In this document: one piece after another, positions 4,656-10,398 of the stretch
How positions within the stretch are numbered: position 1 is the stretch's first letter
How the letters are laid out: the number at the start of each line of letters is the position of its first letter
Origin: an uncultured Candidatus Competibacteraceae bacterium
GTDB taxonomy: Bacteria; Pseudomonadota; Gammaproteobacteria; Competibacterales; Competibacteraceae
DNA: 12,818 bases
Direction of reading: 5' to 3'
Assembly: GCA_937872125.1 (NCBI GenBank)
Contig: CALMNY010000468.1
Location: 1 to 12,818, forward strand
Program-made: the position numbers and the translations under genes
The notes under the pieces: generated by a model
Databases searched by the model: none
Told to the model about the DNA's origin: nothing
The model's input: only the letters and a program-made list of their open reading frames with translations

Positions 4656-6776
4656 ATGCTTTTTTCCCAACGTATCTTTTGCGGGCGACTGACTCCGCAG
4701 GATGTCGGCCGCCAGGTGCTGCTGGCCGGCTGGGTAGACGCCTTCCGCGATCACGGCGGTCTGCTGTTTATCCATCTGCGCGACCTGAGCGGCATCCTGC
4801 AGATCGTCTTCAGCCCGGAAGTTTCCCCGCCCGAAGTCTGCCAGCAGGCGGCCGCCTTGCGCGCCGAATATTGCATCGCAGTCCGGGGCGAGGTGAAAAA
4901 CCGGCTGCCCGGCGCCGAAAACCCCCACATCGAAACCGGCGCCATTGAAGTCGTGGTCACGGAACTGACCGTACTGGCCGAATCCGAGGCGCCGCCGTTC
5001 GCCATTTCCGATAAAGCCATGGTGGCCGGCGCGGTTTCCACCGGCGCCGACCATGTGGCCGAGGAGCTGCGACTCCAGTACCGCTATCTCGATATCCGCC
5101 GGCCAGCGATGCGGGACAATCTGATCGCCCGGCACCGCATCTTTCAGTGCGTCCGGGAATTTCTCGACGCGCGGGGCTTTTTCGAAATCGAAACCCCGGT
5201 ATTGACCATGAGCACCCCCGAGGGGGCGCGCGATTACCTGGTGCCCAGCCGCGTCCATCCGCAGAATTTTTACGCCCTGCCCCAGTCGCCGCAGCTCTTC
5301 AAACAATTGCTGATGATCGGCGGCATCGAACGCTACTTCCAGATGGCCCGCTGCTTCCGCGACGAAGACCTGCGCCCCAACCGGCAACCGGAATTTACCC
5401 AGCTCGACCTGGAAGCGTCCTTTATTGACGAAGAATTTATCTACGAGCTGATCGAAGAACTGACCGTCCGGATGTTCGCGATCGGCGGGATTACCCTGCC
5501 CCGGCCCTTCCCCCGCATGAGCCATGCCGAAGCCATCGACACCACCGGGTCCGACCGTCCCGATCTGCGCTTCGGCCTGCGCTTTGTTGAGGTGACGGAC
5601 CTGTTTTCGCAAACGAATTACTCGATCTTCCGCCAGATTCTGCAGCGCGGCGGCTGCATCAAGGGCATCAACCTCAAGGGCCAGTCCGATCAGCTCAGCA
5701 AGAATGTCCTGCAAAATGAATACGCCAAGGACATCGCACCGTCGTTCGGCGCCAAGGGCATGACCTGGATGCGAGCCGAGAGCGGCAAGCTGGAATCCAA
5801 CATCGTGCAGTTTTTCAGTGAAGCCGAACTGGAGGGACTGCGCCAGCGATTCGAGGTTACCGACGGGGACGTGCTGATCATGGTCGCCGATCCGTCGTAT
5901 GCCATCGTCACCTCGGCGCTCGGCCATCTGCGCCTGCACCTGGCGCATCGCCTCGGGCTGATTCCAGCCAACACGTTCCATCCGGTCTGGATCACCGAGT
6001 TTCCGCTGTTCGAGGCGACCGAAGACGGTGGCATGACCTCCAGCCACCATCCGTTTACCGCGCCCGACCGCACCGATTTCGATCCGAAAAATAGCGAAGA
6101 ATTGCTGGCGCTGCGCTCGCGGTCCTACGATCTGGTCATGAACGGCGAGGAACTGGGCGGCGGCAGCATCCGCATCAACCATCGCGACGTGCAGCGCAAG
6201 ATTTTCGCTGCCCTGGGCCTGACTGAAGAAGAAACCCGGGAAAAATTCGGCTTCTTCCTGCGGGCGTTCGATTTCGGCGCGCCTCCGCATGGCGGCCTGG
6301 CGCTCGGCATGGATCGCACCGTATCCATGATTTTGCAGACCTCGTCCATCCGCGAAGTCATCGCCTTCCCCAAAAACCGCAGCGCGGCCTGTCCGCTGAC
6401 CGGCGCGCCGTCCCGGGTCGCCCGCGAGCAACTGGCCGAACTGGGACTGCTGGATCTCGGCGGCCAGACCGGGTTGCCCGGCGCCGCCGAAAAGGAGAAC
6501 CCGATCGATCATCTGTCCTGGGTCTCGCGCATCGGCCTTTCCGCTGAAGAGCGGCCGGTGATGGAAGCGATTTTGCTCCAGGCCCAACAACTGGCGACGC
6601 GGGTGGCTGAAACCGCAGGAGAGGCAGAACCGATCCGCACCGTCGTCCCGGCCGCCAACCGCATGCGCCCGGGGACGGAGGAGCAGCGCTCGGCGCTGGC
6701 CGAAACCGGCCAACTGCTCAAGAGCGCCCCCGCCATCAAGGGGAATTACTTTAAAGTCGCCAGCATTCTGGAATAA
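4656..6776 (+). CDS. aspS: Non-discriminating-type aspartyl-tRNA synthetase with fused C-terminal GatC domain
   Basis: This 706-residue protein has a complete bacterial AspRS followed by a GatC-like tail. Seen: an OB-fold anticodon-binding domain (about 1-105), the class II catalytic core with LTMSTPEGARDYLVP (183-197), LPQSPQLFKQ, motif 2 RCFRDEDLRPNRQPEFTQLD (232-251), a GAD insertion domain (about 290-420) and motif 3 GLALGMDR (547-554). His33 and Gly86 occupy the positions (P. aeruginosa 31 and 81) that in known AspRSs mark charging of both tRNA-Asp and tRNA-Asn; E. coli has Leu and Lys. Standard AspRS is about 590 residues; here residues 615-706 resemble GatC (IDHLSWVSRIGLSAEE and GNYFKVASILE). 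The SD AAGGA (4643-4647) is 8 bases before the ATG. gatA starts 14 bases after the stop, so the three genes form an operon. The AspRS call is near certain and the GatC domain very likely. Confidence 0.96.
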   Translation: MLFSQRIFCGRLTPQDVGRQVLLAGWVDAFRDHGGLLFIHLRDLSGILQIVFSPEVSPPEVCQQAAALRAEYCIAVRGEVKNRLPGAENPHIETGAIEVVVTELTVLAESEAPPFAISDKAMVAGAVSTGADHVAEELRLQYRYLDIRRPAMRDNLIARHRIFQCVREFLDARGFFEIETPVLTMSTPEGARDYLVPSRVHPQNFYALPQSPQLFKQLLMIGGIERYFQMARCFRDEDLRPNRQPEFTQLDLEASFIDEEFIYELIEELTVRMFAIGGITLPRPFPRMSHAEAIDTTGSDRPDLRFGLRFVEVTDLFSQTNYSIFRQILQRGGCIKGINLKGQSDQLSKNVLQNEYAKDIAPSFGAKGMTWMRAESGKLESNIVQFFSEAELEGLRQRFEVTDGDVLIMVADPSYAIVTSALGHLRLHLAHRLGLIPANTFHPVWITEFPLFEATEDGGMTSSHHPFTAPDRTDFDPKNSEELLALRSRSYDLVMNGEELGGGSIRINHRDVQRKIFAALGLTEEETREKFGFFLRAFDFGAPPHGGLALGMDRTVSMILQTSSIREVIAFPKNRSAACPLTGAPSRVAREQLAELGLLDLGGQTGLPGAAEKENPIDHLSWVSRIGLSAEERPVMEAILLQAQQLATRVAETAGEAEPIRTVVPAANRMRPGTEEQRSALAETGQLLKSAPAIKGNYFKVASILE
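6498..6773 (+). other. gatC: GatC-like domain within the AspRS fusion
   Basis: Residues 615-706 of the fusion have the size and order of a free GatC (about 95 residues). They begin with a helix IDHLSWVSRIGLSAEER (family form: hxHLARLxLSEEE), continue with a second helix ending QQLATRV, then a linker with NRMRPGTEEQ in the place of the NxxReD segment. They end with LLKSAPAIKGNYFKVASILE, matching the GatC tail 'xxNAPexxxgyFxVPkVlE'. In GatCAB, GatC wraps around the GatA-GatB interface. Fusing it to AspRS would covalently attach the synthetase to the amidotransferase. There is no separate gatC start or stop in this frame. Assignment is by motif recognition only. Confidence 0.85.
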
Positions 6777-6790
6777 AGGATCACCCGTTC

Positions 6791-7993
6791 ATGGATTCCA
6801 TTTTTTGCTATCGCCATCCCGAAACCGCCACCGCTCAGGCCGGCCCGCTCCAGGGATTGCGCCTTGCCATCCAGCCCAACTTCTCGGTGGCGGGCTGGCC
6901 GACCGACGCCGGCTCCCGGGCGCTGGCCCACTTTACTGCGCTGGAAGACGCGACTCTGGTGGAACGCCTGCGCCAGGCCGGCGTCGGGTTATGCGGTTCG
7001 ATCCGGATGAGCGAATTCGGCTTCGGCCTGGCGAGCAGTCAGGCCGGCGCCGCGTTGCAACAGCAAGCCGCCGACGCGGAACTGGTGTTGGACCTCATGG
7101 GCGAGAGCCGGCTGGCCGCCGCGCGCGCCGCCGTGTGCGGCTTCAAACCCAGTTACGGCCTGGTCTCCCGCTTTGGGCTGATCGGGCTGATTCCATCCAT
7201 GGAATGCTGCGGACTGCTGTCCGGCAGCCCGAACACGATTCGGGAGATGCTGAAGCGGATCGCCGGTCCCGACGAGCGGGATTTCTCCCTGCCCGACGAA
7301 CCGGTCCCGGACTTTTCCCTGCCGACCATCACCCCGCCGACCACCACCATCGGCGTCATTACCGAAGCGCAAAACCCGCTGTCTGCCGAGGAGCAGGCGC
7401 AGTTTCGCGCCGCGCTCGACGAACTTAACCGCGCGGGCTTCAACCTCCGGGAACTGTCCCTGCCCGACTTCGAGCTGTTTTCCCTCGTCCATCGCATTGT
7501 CGGCTCGGTGGAAGCCTCCTCCTGCGCCGGGCGCTACGACTCCGTCCGTTACGGGGAGCGCGCGCCGGGAGCCAGGAACTGGAATGAGATGTACCGGCTC
7601 TCGCGCGGCGCGGCCTTTGGCCTGCTGGTGAAAAGCTATCTGTTTCAGGGGGCGTTTTTCCAGTTCGAGCGTTACGACGCCTACGAAGACGCCTGCCGCC
7701 TCCGCGCCCGGCTGGTGGCGGACATGCAGCGGTTGACCGGCCAGGTGGACTTTCTGGTATTGCCGGTCGCCGCCGGCGCCGCCGCCCGCGCGCCGGCAGC
7801 GCTGGCCGAGCATTACGCCCAGTTCGCCACAACGCTCTTTGCCAATGTCACCGGCCAGCCCGCCCTGTATCTGCCGCCGCCCTCCGGCGCCGCCCAGGCC
7901 GGCGTGCAACTGGCCGGTCCCAGGCTCAGCGACGCACGGTTGCTGGCGCTGGGGGAATACCTTGTCAATTCGCGCCGGAGAGGAAACCCGTAA
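6791..7993 (+). CDS. gatA: GatA homologue lacking the amidase catalytic triad (probable pseudoenzyme)
   Basis: This 400-residue protein has amidase-signature GatA relationship but is about 85 residues short. It opens at GPLQGLRLAIQPNFSVAG, matching the family GPLaGIPIAIKDN, so the usual N-terminal helices are missing and the catalytic Lys is Gln28. SRALAHFTALEDATLVERLR and MSEFGFG follow as in GatA. The next segment is about 22 residues shorter than normal: the GGSSGGS loop carrying the cis-Ser is gone, and GTDTGGSIRQPA reads DLMGESRLAAA, putting Glu105 at the nucleophile Ser. GFKPSYGLVSRFGL and the C-terminal VDFLVLPVA region are preserved. The frame is intact, an SD AAAGGA precedes it, and its TAA overlaps the gatB ATG (TAATG), so it looks expressed rather than decayed. 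It probably keeps a structural or ammonia-channel role without glutaminase activity. Confidence 0.9.
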   Translation: MDSIFCYRHPETATAQAGPLQGLRLAIQPNFSVAGWPTDAGSRALAHFTALEDATLVERLRQAGVGLCGSIRMSEFGFGLASSQAGAALQQQAADAELVLDLMGESRLAAARAAVCGFKPSYGLVSRFGLIGLIPSMECCGLLSGSPNTIREMLKRIAGPDERDFSLPDEPVPDFSLPTITPPTTTIGVITEAQNPLSAEEQAQFRAALDELNRAGFNLRELSLPDFELFSLVHRIVGSVEASSCAGRYDSVRYGERAPGARNWNEMYRLSRGAAFGLLVKSYLFQGAFFQFERYDAYEDACRLRARLVADMQRLTGQVDFLVLPVAAGAAARAPAALAEHYAQFATTLFANVTGQPALYLPPPSGAAQAGVQLAGPRLSDARLLALGEYLVNSRRRGNP

Positions 7994-9417
7994 TGGATTT
8001 TGAAGCAGTCATCGGCCTGGAAATTCATGTCGAACTCAATTGTGCCACGAAACTGTTCTGTGATTGCCCCAACCGGCCCGGCGACGAACCCAACAGCAAC
8101 ATCTGCCCGATCTGTCTGTGGTTTCCGGGCGCCATTCCCCGGTTGAGCCAGGCGGCGGTAGAAAAAGCCGCGCTGTTGTGCCTGGGACTGGGGGCGGAAC
8201 TACAGCCCCGAAGCGCCTTCGATCAGAAGGTCTACTACTATCCGGATCTGCCGAAGGGCTACCAGCTCTCCCAGGCCCATCTGCCCCTGTCGCGCGGCGG
8301 CGGCATCGAGATTAGCGATGAACACGGCAAGCCGAAAAAGCTGCGCATTCATCACATCCACATGGAAGAGGACGTTGCCAAACTGCTGCACGAGATGGAA
8401 GGCCGCCAGCCGATCAGCCTGGTGGACTTCAACCGCGCCGGCGCGCCGCTGGTGGAAATCGTCACCGAGCCGGATTTCCGCACGCCCTATGAAGCGATGG
8501 AATTTCTCAAGGCGCTGCGCACCCAGGTGCGGTATGTGGGCTCCTCCGAGTGCAGCATGGAAAACGGCACGATGCGCGTCGACGCCAACATTTCCATCCG
8601 GCCGTGCGGTTCCCATCAGATGAACACCAAGGTGGAAGTCAAGAACATGAATTCCATCCGGCATGTCGGCGACGCCATCGCCTACGAGATCAGTCGCCAG
8701 AGTGCGGCGGTGCTGGCGGGGGAAGCCATCGTGCTGCATACCCGGCTGTGGGACCCGGACAAAAAGGTCACCGCCCCGATGCGGGCCAAATTCGAAGGTC
8801 CCTGCGTGCCTGATCCCGCCGTTCCGGTCATCGAGTTATCGCCGGACTGGATCGAAAAAATGCGCGGGCGGCTGCCGGAAATGCCCGCCGCCCGGGCCGA
8901 GCGGTTCGTCAAACAGCACGGCCTGACCGGTGATGAGGCGGTATTCCTGAGCGCCGATCCCGAGGTCGCGGGCTACTTTGAGGCGCTGACCGGCGAGGGC
9001 GTTGCGCCGCGCACCGCCATGCACTGGCTGACGACCCAGTTGCTCCCGGCAGTCAAGGCGCGCGGGCAGGAACTCAGCCGTTCACCGGTGACGGCTGCGC
9101 GCTTTGCCGGGTTGCTGAACATGCTGGCCAGGGACGAGATCAACGCCAATGCAGCGCGTGAGGTGCTAACCCACCTGTTCGACAGCGATGCAGCACCCGA
9201 AGCGATCATCAGCGCCAAGGGGTTCCGGCAGGTGTCCGACCAAAGCGTCCTCGATGCGCTGATCAACCAGGTTCTGGCCGCCCAGCCGGCGGCGGTCGCC
9301 GATCTGCAGGCCGGTCAGGGCAAAGCCATGGGCTTTCTGATCGGCCAGGTGATGCAGGCCTCGGGCGGCAAAGCCAATCCGAAAATCATTCGGGAACTGC
9401 TGGCCAAAAAAATATAG
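7993..9417 (+). CDS. gatB: Aspartyl/glutamyl-tRNA amidotransferase subunit GatB
   Basis: GatB phosphorylates the acyl group on mischarged Asp-tRNA(Asn) or Glu-tRNA(Gln) with ATP and transfers ammonia to it. The 474-residue length is normal. Seen: AVIGLEIHVEL (family IGLEVHVQL), four zinc-type cysteines C23, C25, C38 and C41 in LFCDCP and ICPICL, YYYPDLPKGYQLSQ, HMEEDVAKLLHE, DFNRAGAPLVEIVTEPDF, VDANISIRP, KVEVKNMNSIRHV and TRLWDPDK. The C-terminal helical/YqeY-like tRNA-binding part, from about residue 330, is present and ends in KIIRELLAKKI. Odd point: after APMRAK the expected HDYRYFPEPDLPPL is replaced by FEGPCVPDPAVPVIEL, about three residues shorter. The SD GGAGAGGA (7977-7984) lies 8 bases before the ATG. 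Its place after the AspRS-GatC fusion suggests Asp-tRNA(Asn) as main substrate. Confidence 0.95.
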   Translation: MDFEAVIGLEIHVELNCATKLFCDCPNRPGDEPNSNICPICLWFPGAIPRLSQAAVEKAALLCLGLGAELQPRSAFDQKVYYYPDLPKGYQLSQAHLPLSRGGGIEISDEHGKPKKLRIHHIHMEEDVAKLLHEMEGRQPISLVDFNRAGAPLVEIVTEPDFRTPYEAMEFLKALRTQVRYVGSSECSMENGTMRVDANISIRPCGSHQMNTKVEVKNMNSIRHVGDAIAYEISRQSAAVLAGEAIVLHTRLWDPDKKVTAPMRAKFEGPCVPDPAVPVIELSPDWIEKMRGRLPEMPAARAERFVKQHGLTGDEAVFLSADPEVAGYFEALTGEGVAPRTAMHWLTTQLLPAVKARGQELSRSPVTAARFAGLLNMLARDEINANAAREVLTHLFDSDAAPEAIISAKGFRQVSDQSVLDALINQVLAAQPAAVADLQAGQGKAMGFLIGQVMQASGGKANPKIIRELLAKKI

Positions 9418-9526: not shown

Positions 9527-9643
9527 ATGACTATTACCCTAACCATTCAAGTAAATCCAGCCGATGCGTGTAGCCCACAGGGCTGGTTTGCAACGTCTGG
9601 CCAAAAGCACCTCAACCCACCCATGGAGCAGTCAAACCCATGA
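9527..9643 (+). CDS. Possible small ORF overlapping the hisF start (doubtful)
   Basis: ATG at 9527 opens a 38-codon frame beginning MTITLTIQVNPADACSPQGW. Its TGA (9641-9643) overlaps the hisF ATG (9640) in an ATGA junction, the arrangement used for translational coupling. Against it: no good SD (only a weak AAAGAACGAG), codon use poorer in GC than neighbouring genes, and no recognisable domain. It has a single His, so it is not a histidine attenuator peptide. It could be a leader peptide, a tiny protein, or chance. I recognise no family. Confidence 0.2.
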   Translation: MTITLTIQVNPADACSPQGWFATSGQKHLNPPMEQSNP

Positions 9644-10398
9644 TCAAGATCATGCCCTGCCTGGACATGAAGAACGGACGAGTCGTCAAGGGAATTCACT
9701 TCGTTGATATCCAGGATGCGGGCGACCCGGTGGAAAACGCCGCCCGCTACCAGCAGGAAGGCGCCGACGAACTCGCCATGCTGGATATTGCCGCCACCCT
9801 CGAAAATCGCAAAACCCGGCTTGAATGGGTCCGGAACGTGTCTGCCGTGATTGAGATCCCTCTGACGGTCGGTGGAGGCATCTCAACGCTGGAAGACATC
9901 GAGCTGTTGTTTGAGGCCGGCGCCGATAAAGTCTCGATGAACAGCGCGGCGGTCAACCGGCCTGCCCTCGTCAGCGAAGCCGCCAAGGCGCTCGGCCCGG
10001 AGCGCATCACCGTGGCGATTGATGCCCGCCGAAACAGCGCCATGCCCTCGGGGTTCGAACTGGTCGTTTCCGGCGGCACCAGGGCGGTCGGAAAGGATGC
10101 CGTCGAATGGGCCAGGCAGTGTGAAGCGTTGGGAGCGGGCGTGATCCTGCCGACCAGCATGGACGGTGACGGCACGCAGGCGGGCTACGATATTGCGTTC
10201 ACCCGCGCGATTTCCCAGGCGGTTCGCGTGCCGGTAGTCGCCTCGGGCGGAGCCGGCAAACTGGAAGACTTTGAGGAAGCGGTCACGCAGGGCGGCGCGA
10301 GCATTCTGCTGGCGGCCTCCGTCTTTCATTACCGGATTCTGACCATTCAGCAGGTGAAGGAGTATCTGCGCCAACAAGGCCTCGCGGTCGCCTTGTGA
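9640..10398 (+). CDS. hisF: HisF-like imidazole glycerol phosphate synthase cyclase subunit, divergent and without adjacent HisH
   Basis: HisF is a (beta/alpha)8 barrel that uses ammonia, normally from the glutaminase HisH, to convert PRFAR into imidazole glycerol phosphate and AICAR. This 252-residue protein has PCLDMKNGRVVKG with catalytic Asp9 (D11 in T. maritima), VAIDAR with Asp128 (D130), phosphate-binding VGGGIS, and ASGGAGKLEDF. GADK at 94-97 keeps the interface Asp and Lys. Of the four ammonia-gate residues at the barrel base (R5, E46, K99 and E167 in T. maritima), Glu44 and Lys97 remain, Arg is Lys3, and the last Glu is Val168 (GAGVILPTSMDGDGT versus usual GAGEIL). No hisH, hisA or other his gene is in the window. 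GGAG (about 9624) is the likely SD. It may be a second HisF copy, the sole HisF, or a cyclase with another substrate. Confidence 0.88.
   Translation: MIKIMPCLDMKNGRVVKGIHFVDIQDAGDPVENAARYQQEGADELAMLDIAATLENRKTRLEWVRNVSAVIEIPLTVGGGISTLEDIELLFEAGADKVSMNSAAVNRPALVSEAAKALGPERITVAIDARRNSAMPSGFELVVSGGTRAVGKDAVEWARQCEALGAGVILPTSMDGDGTQAGYDIAFTRAISQAVRVPVVASGGAGKLEDFEEAVTQGGASILLAASVFHYRILTIQQVKEYLRQQGLAVAL

Follow-up and report, generated by a model that had tools for sequence, protein, structure and literature searches.

A spare tRNA-charging operon carried by many phyla points to glutamine-free aminoacyl-tRNA synthesis. It encodes an AspRS-GatC fusion, a GatA paralogue from which all three catalytic residues are gone (here the cassette GatA) and a GatB paralogue with changed signature residues (the cassette GatB). 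The original prediction, made for a single gatA-like gene, was of a pseudo-amidase that does not hydrolyze glutamine; the family to which this gene belongs is real, conserved and widespread, and that reading is both supported and extended here by the changed GatB, an ordinary GatA in the same genome, the mobility of the cassette and its linkage to paralogues of GuaA and HisF (GuaA' and HisF'). The explanation we prefer, to which we give somewhat less than an even chance, is that the operon specifies a second, dedicated transamidosome that has no need of glutamine and probably uses free ammonia.

The window, by which we mean the whole stretch of 12,818 nucleotides analyzed, is the entire contig C468 of the draft genome G000 (3.49 Mb, 553 contigs, 80.7% complete) of an uncultured Candidatus Competibacteraceae bacterium. 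Genes for a radical-SAM protein (DUF3641), a glycosyltransferase, a DUF2064 protein and a VTT-flavoprotein lie, in that order, upstream of the following:

4656 to 6776, + strand: AspRS-GatC fusion, 706 aa, with the GatC domain C-terminal (NF009460 profile, AspRS alignment).
6791 to 7993, + strand: cassette GatA, a predicted glutaminase-dead GatA paralogue, 400 aa, ATG start (profiles, alignments, model).
7993 to 9417, + strand: cassette GatB, an apparently re-specified GatB paralogue, 474 aa (GatB_N and GatB_Yqey).
9640 to 10398, + strand: HisF', a HisF paralogue and recurrent cassette neighbor (profile, alignment, tree).

A gene for a Gate-domain protein (+ strand) and an NnrU-like gene (− strand) complete the window. 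The cassette gatA is coupled to gatB, as had been proposed, with the stop codon TAA (7991-7993) and the gatB ATG (7993-7995) sharing one base. An ordinary gatA with an intact triad is present in the same genome (contig C20, L001); its product is 31% identical to the cassette GatA, and it lies between an apparent partial gatC upstream (by eye) and a downstream gatB truncated where the contig stops. Contig C310 of this assembly, which is possibly a contaminant, encodes a third, differently related GatB. A binning artefact was ruled out for the cassette flanks because the upstream VTT protein is conserved in same-genus genomes, being 88-94% identical in five of seven, present as two pieces of 80-85% identity in G002 and only about 32% identical in G005. 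The flanking genes point to a genus that databases name Ca. Contendobacter/Competibacteraceae. The exact site of cassette insertion was not found, the likeness to relatives ending at the gene end.

Alignment of the cassette GatA with the intact GatA of its own genome bears out every loss originally predicted: Gln28 (CAG) aligns with the catalytic Lys84, Glu105 (GAG) aligns with the nucleophile Ser183, and the segment with GGSSGGS (cis-Ser159) falls within a gap of 22 columns. The N-terminal helices are absent, with 21 residues before an aligned Gly as against 69-77 in four ordinary GatA proteins, and GFKPSYGLVSRFGL and the C-terminal core are retained. The positions of interest are as follows, with counts from the family alignment described below:

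6872 to 6874, + strand: Gln28, in the place of the catalytic Lys (Lys in 0 of 255 rows).
7040 to 7045, + strand: junction of the 22-residue deletion, between residues 84 and 85, its exact place being alignment-dependent (gap in 255 of 255).
7103 to 7105, + strand: Glu105, in the place of the nucleophile Ser, GESR for GGSIR (Glu in 254 of 255).
7490 to 7492, + strand: His234, in the place of an invariant Tyr of ordinary GatA (His in 253 of 255).
7637 to 7663, + strand: Tyr283, Gln286 and Gln291 (alignment).
7823 to 7825, + strand: Phe345, in the place of a glutamine-binding Asp (Phe in 250 of 255; Asp in 34 of 34 ordinary GatA).

The protein matches the Pfam Amidase family and scores 207.4 bits with TIGR00132 (gatA), below the cut-off of 481.1. 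Its AlphaFold model (pLDDT 90.7) aligns to Pseudomonas aeruginosa GatA over 399 residues, and the protein is thus confidently predicted to have the amidase-signature fold of GatA. It is a GatA by fold, without the residues that define the function, and glutamine hydrolysis is predicted to be absent.

At E <= 1e-3, a protein search with the cassette GatA scored 766 proteins; identity is 66-98% for the best 120, almost all of which have a length near 400 aa. A second search, from the Desulfocicer protein, added at least 119 further proteins. Scanning species genomes yielded 20 loci. Sixteen belong to this family, with labels that include Chloroflexi, Verrucomicrobia, Syntrophus, Dehalococcoidia, Acidobacteria, Ca. 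Anammoximicrobium, Gaiellales, Actinomycetota, Pseudomonadota and Desulfobacteraceae/Desulfobacterales, among the last the cultured Desulfocicer vacuolatum; the remaining four hold GatA-like genes of the ordinary rhizobial kind (28%). The cassette was found in 28 of 241 genomes from the class of Desulfocicer (E <= 1e-60), two of which were already among the first 16. Within a set of 144 genomes around G000 (136 matched), the best match outside G000 had 139.6 bits and only 34% identity over its length, which is what an ordinary GatA would give; the seven other genomes of the genus are among those searched.

We aligned 255 cassette GatA rows (239 database proteins, 15 loci and the window, with near-duplicates included and some loci also present among the proteins) with 34 ordinary GatA rows. 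The losses are beyond chance. The Lys of all 34 ordinary rows is replaced by Gln in 219, Glu in 22, Asp in 11, and Ala, Pro and His in one each; the cis-Ser, likewise present in all 34, falls in a gap throughout the family; and where the ordinary rows all have the nucleophile Ser, the single cassette row without Glu has Gln. Four further columns that are invariant in the ordinary set have been rewritten: R363 to Tyr (242), Phe (11) or Cys (2); E359 to Leu in 231 rows and to other residues elsewhere; D430 to Phe, apart from Tyr, His and Ser in one row each and a gap in two; and Y314, which we take to lie at the active site, to His, apart from one Tyr and one Gly. In yeast GatFAB, glutamine is bound by the residues corresponding to R363 and D430, and the one corresponding to E359 supports the Arg; on mapping by spacing, the replaced positions include the counterparts of the glutamine-binding yeast residues E330, R334 and D418 (PMC4027206). 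Tyr283 of the window protein occupies the place of the Arg that binds the glutamine carboxylate in ordinary GatA (again mapped by spacing). The new residues W264, N265, Q286 and Q291 are invariant (255 of 255) and W36 is present in 253; with old pocket residues lost and new ones fixed, the pocket looks rebuilt rather than merely lost, and we infer that the new invariant residues line one pocket.

No replacement triad was found in the 255 sequences: Ser follows Glu105 in only 129 of them, and none has a GGSSGG-type motif. The near-invariance of Glu105 and His234 raises the idea that this pair hydrolyzes another amide donor, but with the cis-Ser loop gone, and with no precedent known to us for Glu/His hydrolysis among amidase-signature enzymes, we consider this very improbable.

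The same changes recur in the 28 Desulfobacteria loci, all of which have the deletion, the Ser to Glu and the Tyr to His replacements; the Lys position reads Gln in 16, Glu in six, Arg in three, His in two and Trp in one. Estimates of dN/dS are far below 1 for the cassette GatA (0.16-0.25 over seven pairs), GatB (0.09-0.15) and AspRS-GatC (0.08-0.18), indicative of purifying selection. With the catalytic changes fixed or nearly fixed family-wide and glutamine-binding residues lost as well, the proposal of a pseudo-amidase under selection, not a decaying gene, stands. Random frameshifts would have spoken for decay, but all 28 loci keep the three genes in order and a GatA frame of full length (398-426 aa), and the cassette is present in the cultured Desulfocicer vacuolatum and Desulfobacula toluolica. 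Two of the first 16 loci have a damaged gatA, which counts against the preferred explanation: in L047 the gene breaks off at an ambiguous base, and in L048 (6995-8101) an internal deletion, real or an assembly fault, runs from gatA into the end of gatB. These two cases would be accommodated by a decaying gene or an assembly artefact, an explanation to which we give almost no credence; decay as such is ruled out by the fixation of the same changes across the family and by the dN/dS values.

The partners are altered too. The cassette GatB scores above its family cut-off (TIGR00133, 481.4 bits versus 314.8), and its AlphaFold model is weaker than that of GatA (pLDDT 81.3). The ATP/Mg2+ residues named for GatFAB GatB, E10, H12, E125, E155, T158, N199 and S201 (PMC4027206), were mapped by spacing, and all seven are invariant in 15 of 15 cassette GatB proteins. 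In the Desulfobacteria loci, where counts fall below 28 because of gaps at contig ends, E10 and H12 are kept in 28 of 28, E125, E155, N199 and S201 in all 27 with a residue, and position 158 is Thr in 23 and Ser in four. Elsewhere, R78, R121, E267 and the motif DYRYF are present in all 46 ordinary GatB and in none of 14 members of the cassette family, in which R78 has become Gln, R121 His, E267 Phe and R270 Pro, with DY deleted and Y271 replaced by Cys in 13 members and Thr in one:

8224 to 8226, + strand: Gln78, in the place of an invariant Arg of ordinary GatB (Gln in 14 of 14, and in 27 of 27 Desulfobacteria with a residue; Arg in 46 of 46 ordinary).
8353 to 8355, + strand: His121, in the place of an invariant Arg (His in 14 of 14, and in 26 of 27 with a residue; Arg in 46 of 46 ordinary).
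8791 to 8805, + strand: FEGPC, where ordinary GatB has E..(DY)RYF, with a conserved new Cys271 (13 of 14, and 26 of 26 with a residue).

The conserved Cys of FEGPC may have a catalytic or metal-binding role. The fusion matches NF009460 (bifunctional AspRS/GatC) over its full length with 1339.5 bits, just below the cut-off of 1379. Its AspRS part retains the active-site motifs for Asp and ATP (alignment with 16 ordinary AspRS, by eye), and the changes fixed in the family include Asn for Asp224 in the loop of motif 2 and His for Asp37 in the domain that reads the anticodon (E. coli numbering). According to the same source, Asn52 is one of two GatB residues that touch an invariant Arg and Asp of GatC (PMC4027206). 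Asn52 is Ser in 13 of the 14 cassette GatB members, and the GatC Asp reads Gly in the fusion (by eye); the parts of the cassette seem to have evolved together and to be orthogonal to their housekeeping counterparts.

In the second transamidosome that we propose, AspRS-GatC would load Asp onto a tRNA, most likely tRNA-Asn, and anchor GatA and GatB; GatB would use ATP and Mg2+ to activate the bound Asp at its side-chain carboxylate; and the nitrogen would come from free ammonia, or a small amine, by way of the retained GatA/GatB fold, not being made by GatA, which would persist as a scaffold and, with its pocket rebuilt, as a port for the donor. That the donor is ammonia, the substrate Asp-tRNA-Asn and the product Asn-tRNA is inferred. 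GatFAB mutants with reduced glutaminase activity are reported to amidate better with NH4Cl (PMC4027206), which is a precedent. Alternatively, a pseudo-enzyme with conserved new residues might be expected of a regulator, in which GatA senses a ligand or serves as a scaffold and the complex, rather than amidating Asp-tRNA, chiefly retains or edits it; a pure scaffold would have no need of the conserved ATP/Mg2+ ligands of GatB and motifs of AspRS, and we think this reading quite unlikely.

The three genes travel as a unit. They are adjacent in 28 of 28 Desulfobacteria carriers and, as far as the contigs reach, in the first 16 loci except L048; the flanks differ among most loci, those of L042 and L043 being shared. 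Other copies were counted in the first 17 of the 43 carriers: another GatB above the cut-off is present in 16 (the exception is G157), and a clear stand-alone AspRS in 16 (that of G144 is fragmentary, and the G147 copy has one stop). The cassette is therefore an extra, and a role as sole housekeeping enzyme was ruled out for these 17 genomes. Among 12 hosts with both types, the cassette GatB proteins are more alike than the housekeeping ones in 64 of 66 pairs (mean likeness 0.74 versus 0.52). On these comparisons the cassette is an accessory module that has been transferred horizontally between phyla. Carriage by phages or plasmids was ruled out by the want of close matches: there was no relative in viral contigs, in a search that reaches close relatives only, and the 167 plasmid records with a match (the ten listed at about 28%) and 39 phage records matching AspRS are all below 60% identity.

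Clustering of the neighbors of 32 cassette loci revealed two recurrent companions. A paralogue of HisF accompanies the cassette in four loci, just as it does in the window, and three loci have a GuaA ATP-PPase that stands alone:

L185 5983-6975, L186 6483-7448 and L192 11904-12932: GuaA' without a glutaminase domain, linked to the cassette or to HisF'.
Window, L185, L186, L190 and L195: HisF' beside the cassette in unrelated genomes, with the gate Glu lost.

The full operon in G297 and G164 reads AspRS-GatC, GatA, GatB, GuaA', HisF', and the last two frames overlap by 4 bases in G164; GuaA' lies directly upstream of AspRS-GatC in G202, and HisF' is convergent and directly downstream in G307 and G219. 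GuaA' frames are 312-408 aa (27 copies) compared with 511-580 aa for ordinary GuaA; the glutaminase domain is absent from the three copies scanned, many positions are changed and fixed in 27 of 27, and the nearest relative is GMP synthase subunit B. The window HisF' scores 311.2 bits with TIGR00735, above the cut-off of 294.55, and the Desulfobacteria copies fall below it at 268-285 bits. The catalytic Asp pair (D11, D130) is kept in all 37 HisF'. The residues R5, E46, K99 and E167 are presumed to couple HisF to HisH, with Glu167 as the ammonia gate, and these are partly lost: E167, present in 21 of 21 ordinary HisF, is Val in 23 HisF', Thr in five, Ala in three, Ile in two, and Gln, Tyr, Cys and Glu in one each, and R5 is Lys in 20, Arg in 14, Leu in two and Ser in one. 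E46 (37 of 37) and K99 (34 of 37) are largely kept, which counts against the glutamine-free explanation that we prefer. There is no HisH among the ten window genes scanned.

Co-occurrence was examined in 70 genomes, 43 cassette carriers and 27 non-carriers, the latter defined by E > 1e-60 or no close match, so that very divergent copies could escape; HisF' was called at >=271 bits or, in G368, by adjacency to GuaA'. With kinship ignored, GuaA' is present in 25 of 43 carriers and 6 of 27 non-carriers (Fisher p 0.006), HisF' in 32 of 43 and 7 of 27 (Fisher p 0.00015), and the two co-occur with each other (p 1.4e-7, 70 genomes). In Desulfobacteria alone the association holds for HisF' (20/28 versus 6/20, p 0.008) and is not significant for GuaA' (16/28 versus 6/20, p 0.08). 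Both are missing from nine of the 43 carriers, including Desulfocicer vacuolatum, no GuaA' was found in the genome of the window, and the same-genus genome G001 has a 96% identical HisF' with no cassette beside it; carriers without these genes, and non-carriers with them, argue against the preferred explanation. Each of the five families recurs in 26-32 of 73 loci (the window together with loci of the cassette, of GuaA' and of HisF', several being from one genome), partly from the choice of loci, and no other gene recurs in more than five. The most recurrent is an acyl-CoA dehydrogenase (five loci), followed by a response regulator, TatA, TatC and four others at four loci each, mostly in related genomes. 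TatA/TatC lie near HisF' or GuaA' in L269, L272, L282 and L284, with one other phylum represented, and this may be chance. In L049 (514-3705) a gene for CarB, the carbamoyl-phosphate synthase large subunit, is directly upstream of the cassette, as a single case, and a small NirB-like (nitrite/sulfite reductase-like) protein is encoded near it in L048 (3540-4217, by eye) and L192 (12996-13652, by profile).

On sequence grounds GuaA' and HisF' are linked to the cassette and both appear to lack a glutaminase. HisF and the ATP-PPases of GMP synthases can in principle use free ammonia, and so GuaA' and HisF' fit the glutamine-free theme, the module traveling in many genomes with these two other glutaminase-free synthase paralogues. 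A variant with the same mechanism, concerned with why the set is kept, would make it a mobile backup that takes over glutaminase-dependent steps under glutamine shortage or when glutamine antimetabolites block the glutaminase sites. An accessory, mobile and self-contained module would suit such a purpose, and all three modules would be free of the glutaminase that such inhibitors hit, but they cover just three of many glutamine amidotransferases, the changed positions of GuaA' suggest another substrate, and the neighborhood shows no other recurrent gene, for example one for resistance; we judge it unlikely.

The cassette resembles the asparagine transamidosome (ND-AspRS with GatCAB; PDB 3kfu, 4wj3), but here AspRS is fused to GatC, the glutaminase site is removed, signature residues of GatB are changed, and an ordinary GatA and GatB coexist in the same genome. 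The bifunctional AspRS-GatC model PRK12820/NF009460 covers the whole fusion and is silent on the dead GatA and changed GatB. Unlike yeast mitochondrial GatFAB, which has intact catalytic scissors, the cassette GatA has none. Biuret hydrolase (6c62), presumably AtzE with a GatC-like partner, has a GatA-like fold outside tRNA charging (by name and title); it is a catabolic hydrolase, whereas the cassette GatA lacks the triad and sits within a full AspRS-GatC-GatB operon. The best solved-structure matches are GMP synthase subunit B 2dpl, which we take to be archaeal, for GuaA' (L185 copy) and HisF-LUCA 4evz for the window HisF'. To our knowledge, all known tRNA-dependent amidotransferases carry their own ammonia source, GatA or GatD; if our explanation is true, the cassette is the first naturally glutaminase-free transamidosome known to us, and together with GuaA' and HisF' it makes the need of amidotransferases for a coupled glutaminase directly testable. 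Many of the 239 GatA relatives, some annotated 'amidotransferase subunit A', are unlikely to be glutaminases. We recognized no report on this family in the literature searched, which is not proof of its absence from print.

A different chemistry is a serious rival, though on balance unlikely: a group other than ammonia may be transferred onto Asp-tRNA, or the acceptor may be another aminoacyl-tRNA or a nucleotide, in one pathway with GuaA' and HisF'. The GatA pocket (E105, H234, Q286, Q291, W36, F345) would bind the new donor or ligand, and a new acceptor or nucleophile would be taken by the altered GatB site, to which the new Cys belongs. The new GatA residues are as invariant as the old ones; simple ammonia use would not require the loss of R78, R121, E267 and DYRYF from GatB, which counts against the preferred explanation, so the acceptor or the chemistry may differ; and the changes in GatB and GuaA' suggest altered substrates, against a plain Asn backup. 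Each of the five families, GuaA' and HisF' included, forms a clade apart from the housekeeping relatives of the hosts compared (support 0.995-1.0; the GatA tree was built from a random 60 of 255 rows). Many carriers already have routes to Asn, with AsnRS in 17 of 26 and AsnB above the cut-off in 16 of 26, which weakens the supply of Asn as a simple reason for the cassette and counts against the preferred explanation. Stated as a whole, this would be a mobile, widespread five-gene system for an undescribed pathway, both tRNA- and nucleotide-dependent, with re-specified glutaminase-free synthases, delivering ammonia or another small nucleophile to an activated Asp-tRNA and a purine-like substrate, with a product other than ordinary Asn-tRNA; that, too, we hold to be possible but on balance improbable. 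The AspRS and GatB ATP/Mg2+ sites look ordinary, there is no wider gene cluster, and no suppressor or otherwise odd anticodon occurs among the ARAGORN-named tRNAs of two carriers, Desulfocicer and Syntrophus.

ARAGORN named 50 of 51 Rfam tRNA matches in Desulfocicer, the unnamed one (C44) scoring 30.6 bits, and 43 of 43 in Syntrophus. The Syntrophus genome G146 has a divergent second tRNA-Asn (L142, 87-162) with only 36 bits in Rfam tRNA; the two Desulfocicer tRNA-Asn are identical, so that a divergent tRNA-Asn has no link to the cassette, and a dedicated odd tRNA was rejected on this ground and on the anticodons. No tRNA lies beside the cassette except a tRNA-Arg in L034, and Rfam at gathering scores gave no match at the cassette in 11 sources. 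A tandem glycine riboswitch (L045, 2340-2516, − strand) precedes a minus-strand neighbor gene in Desulfocicer.
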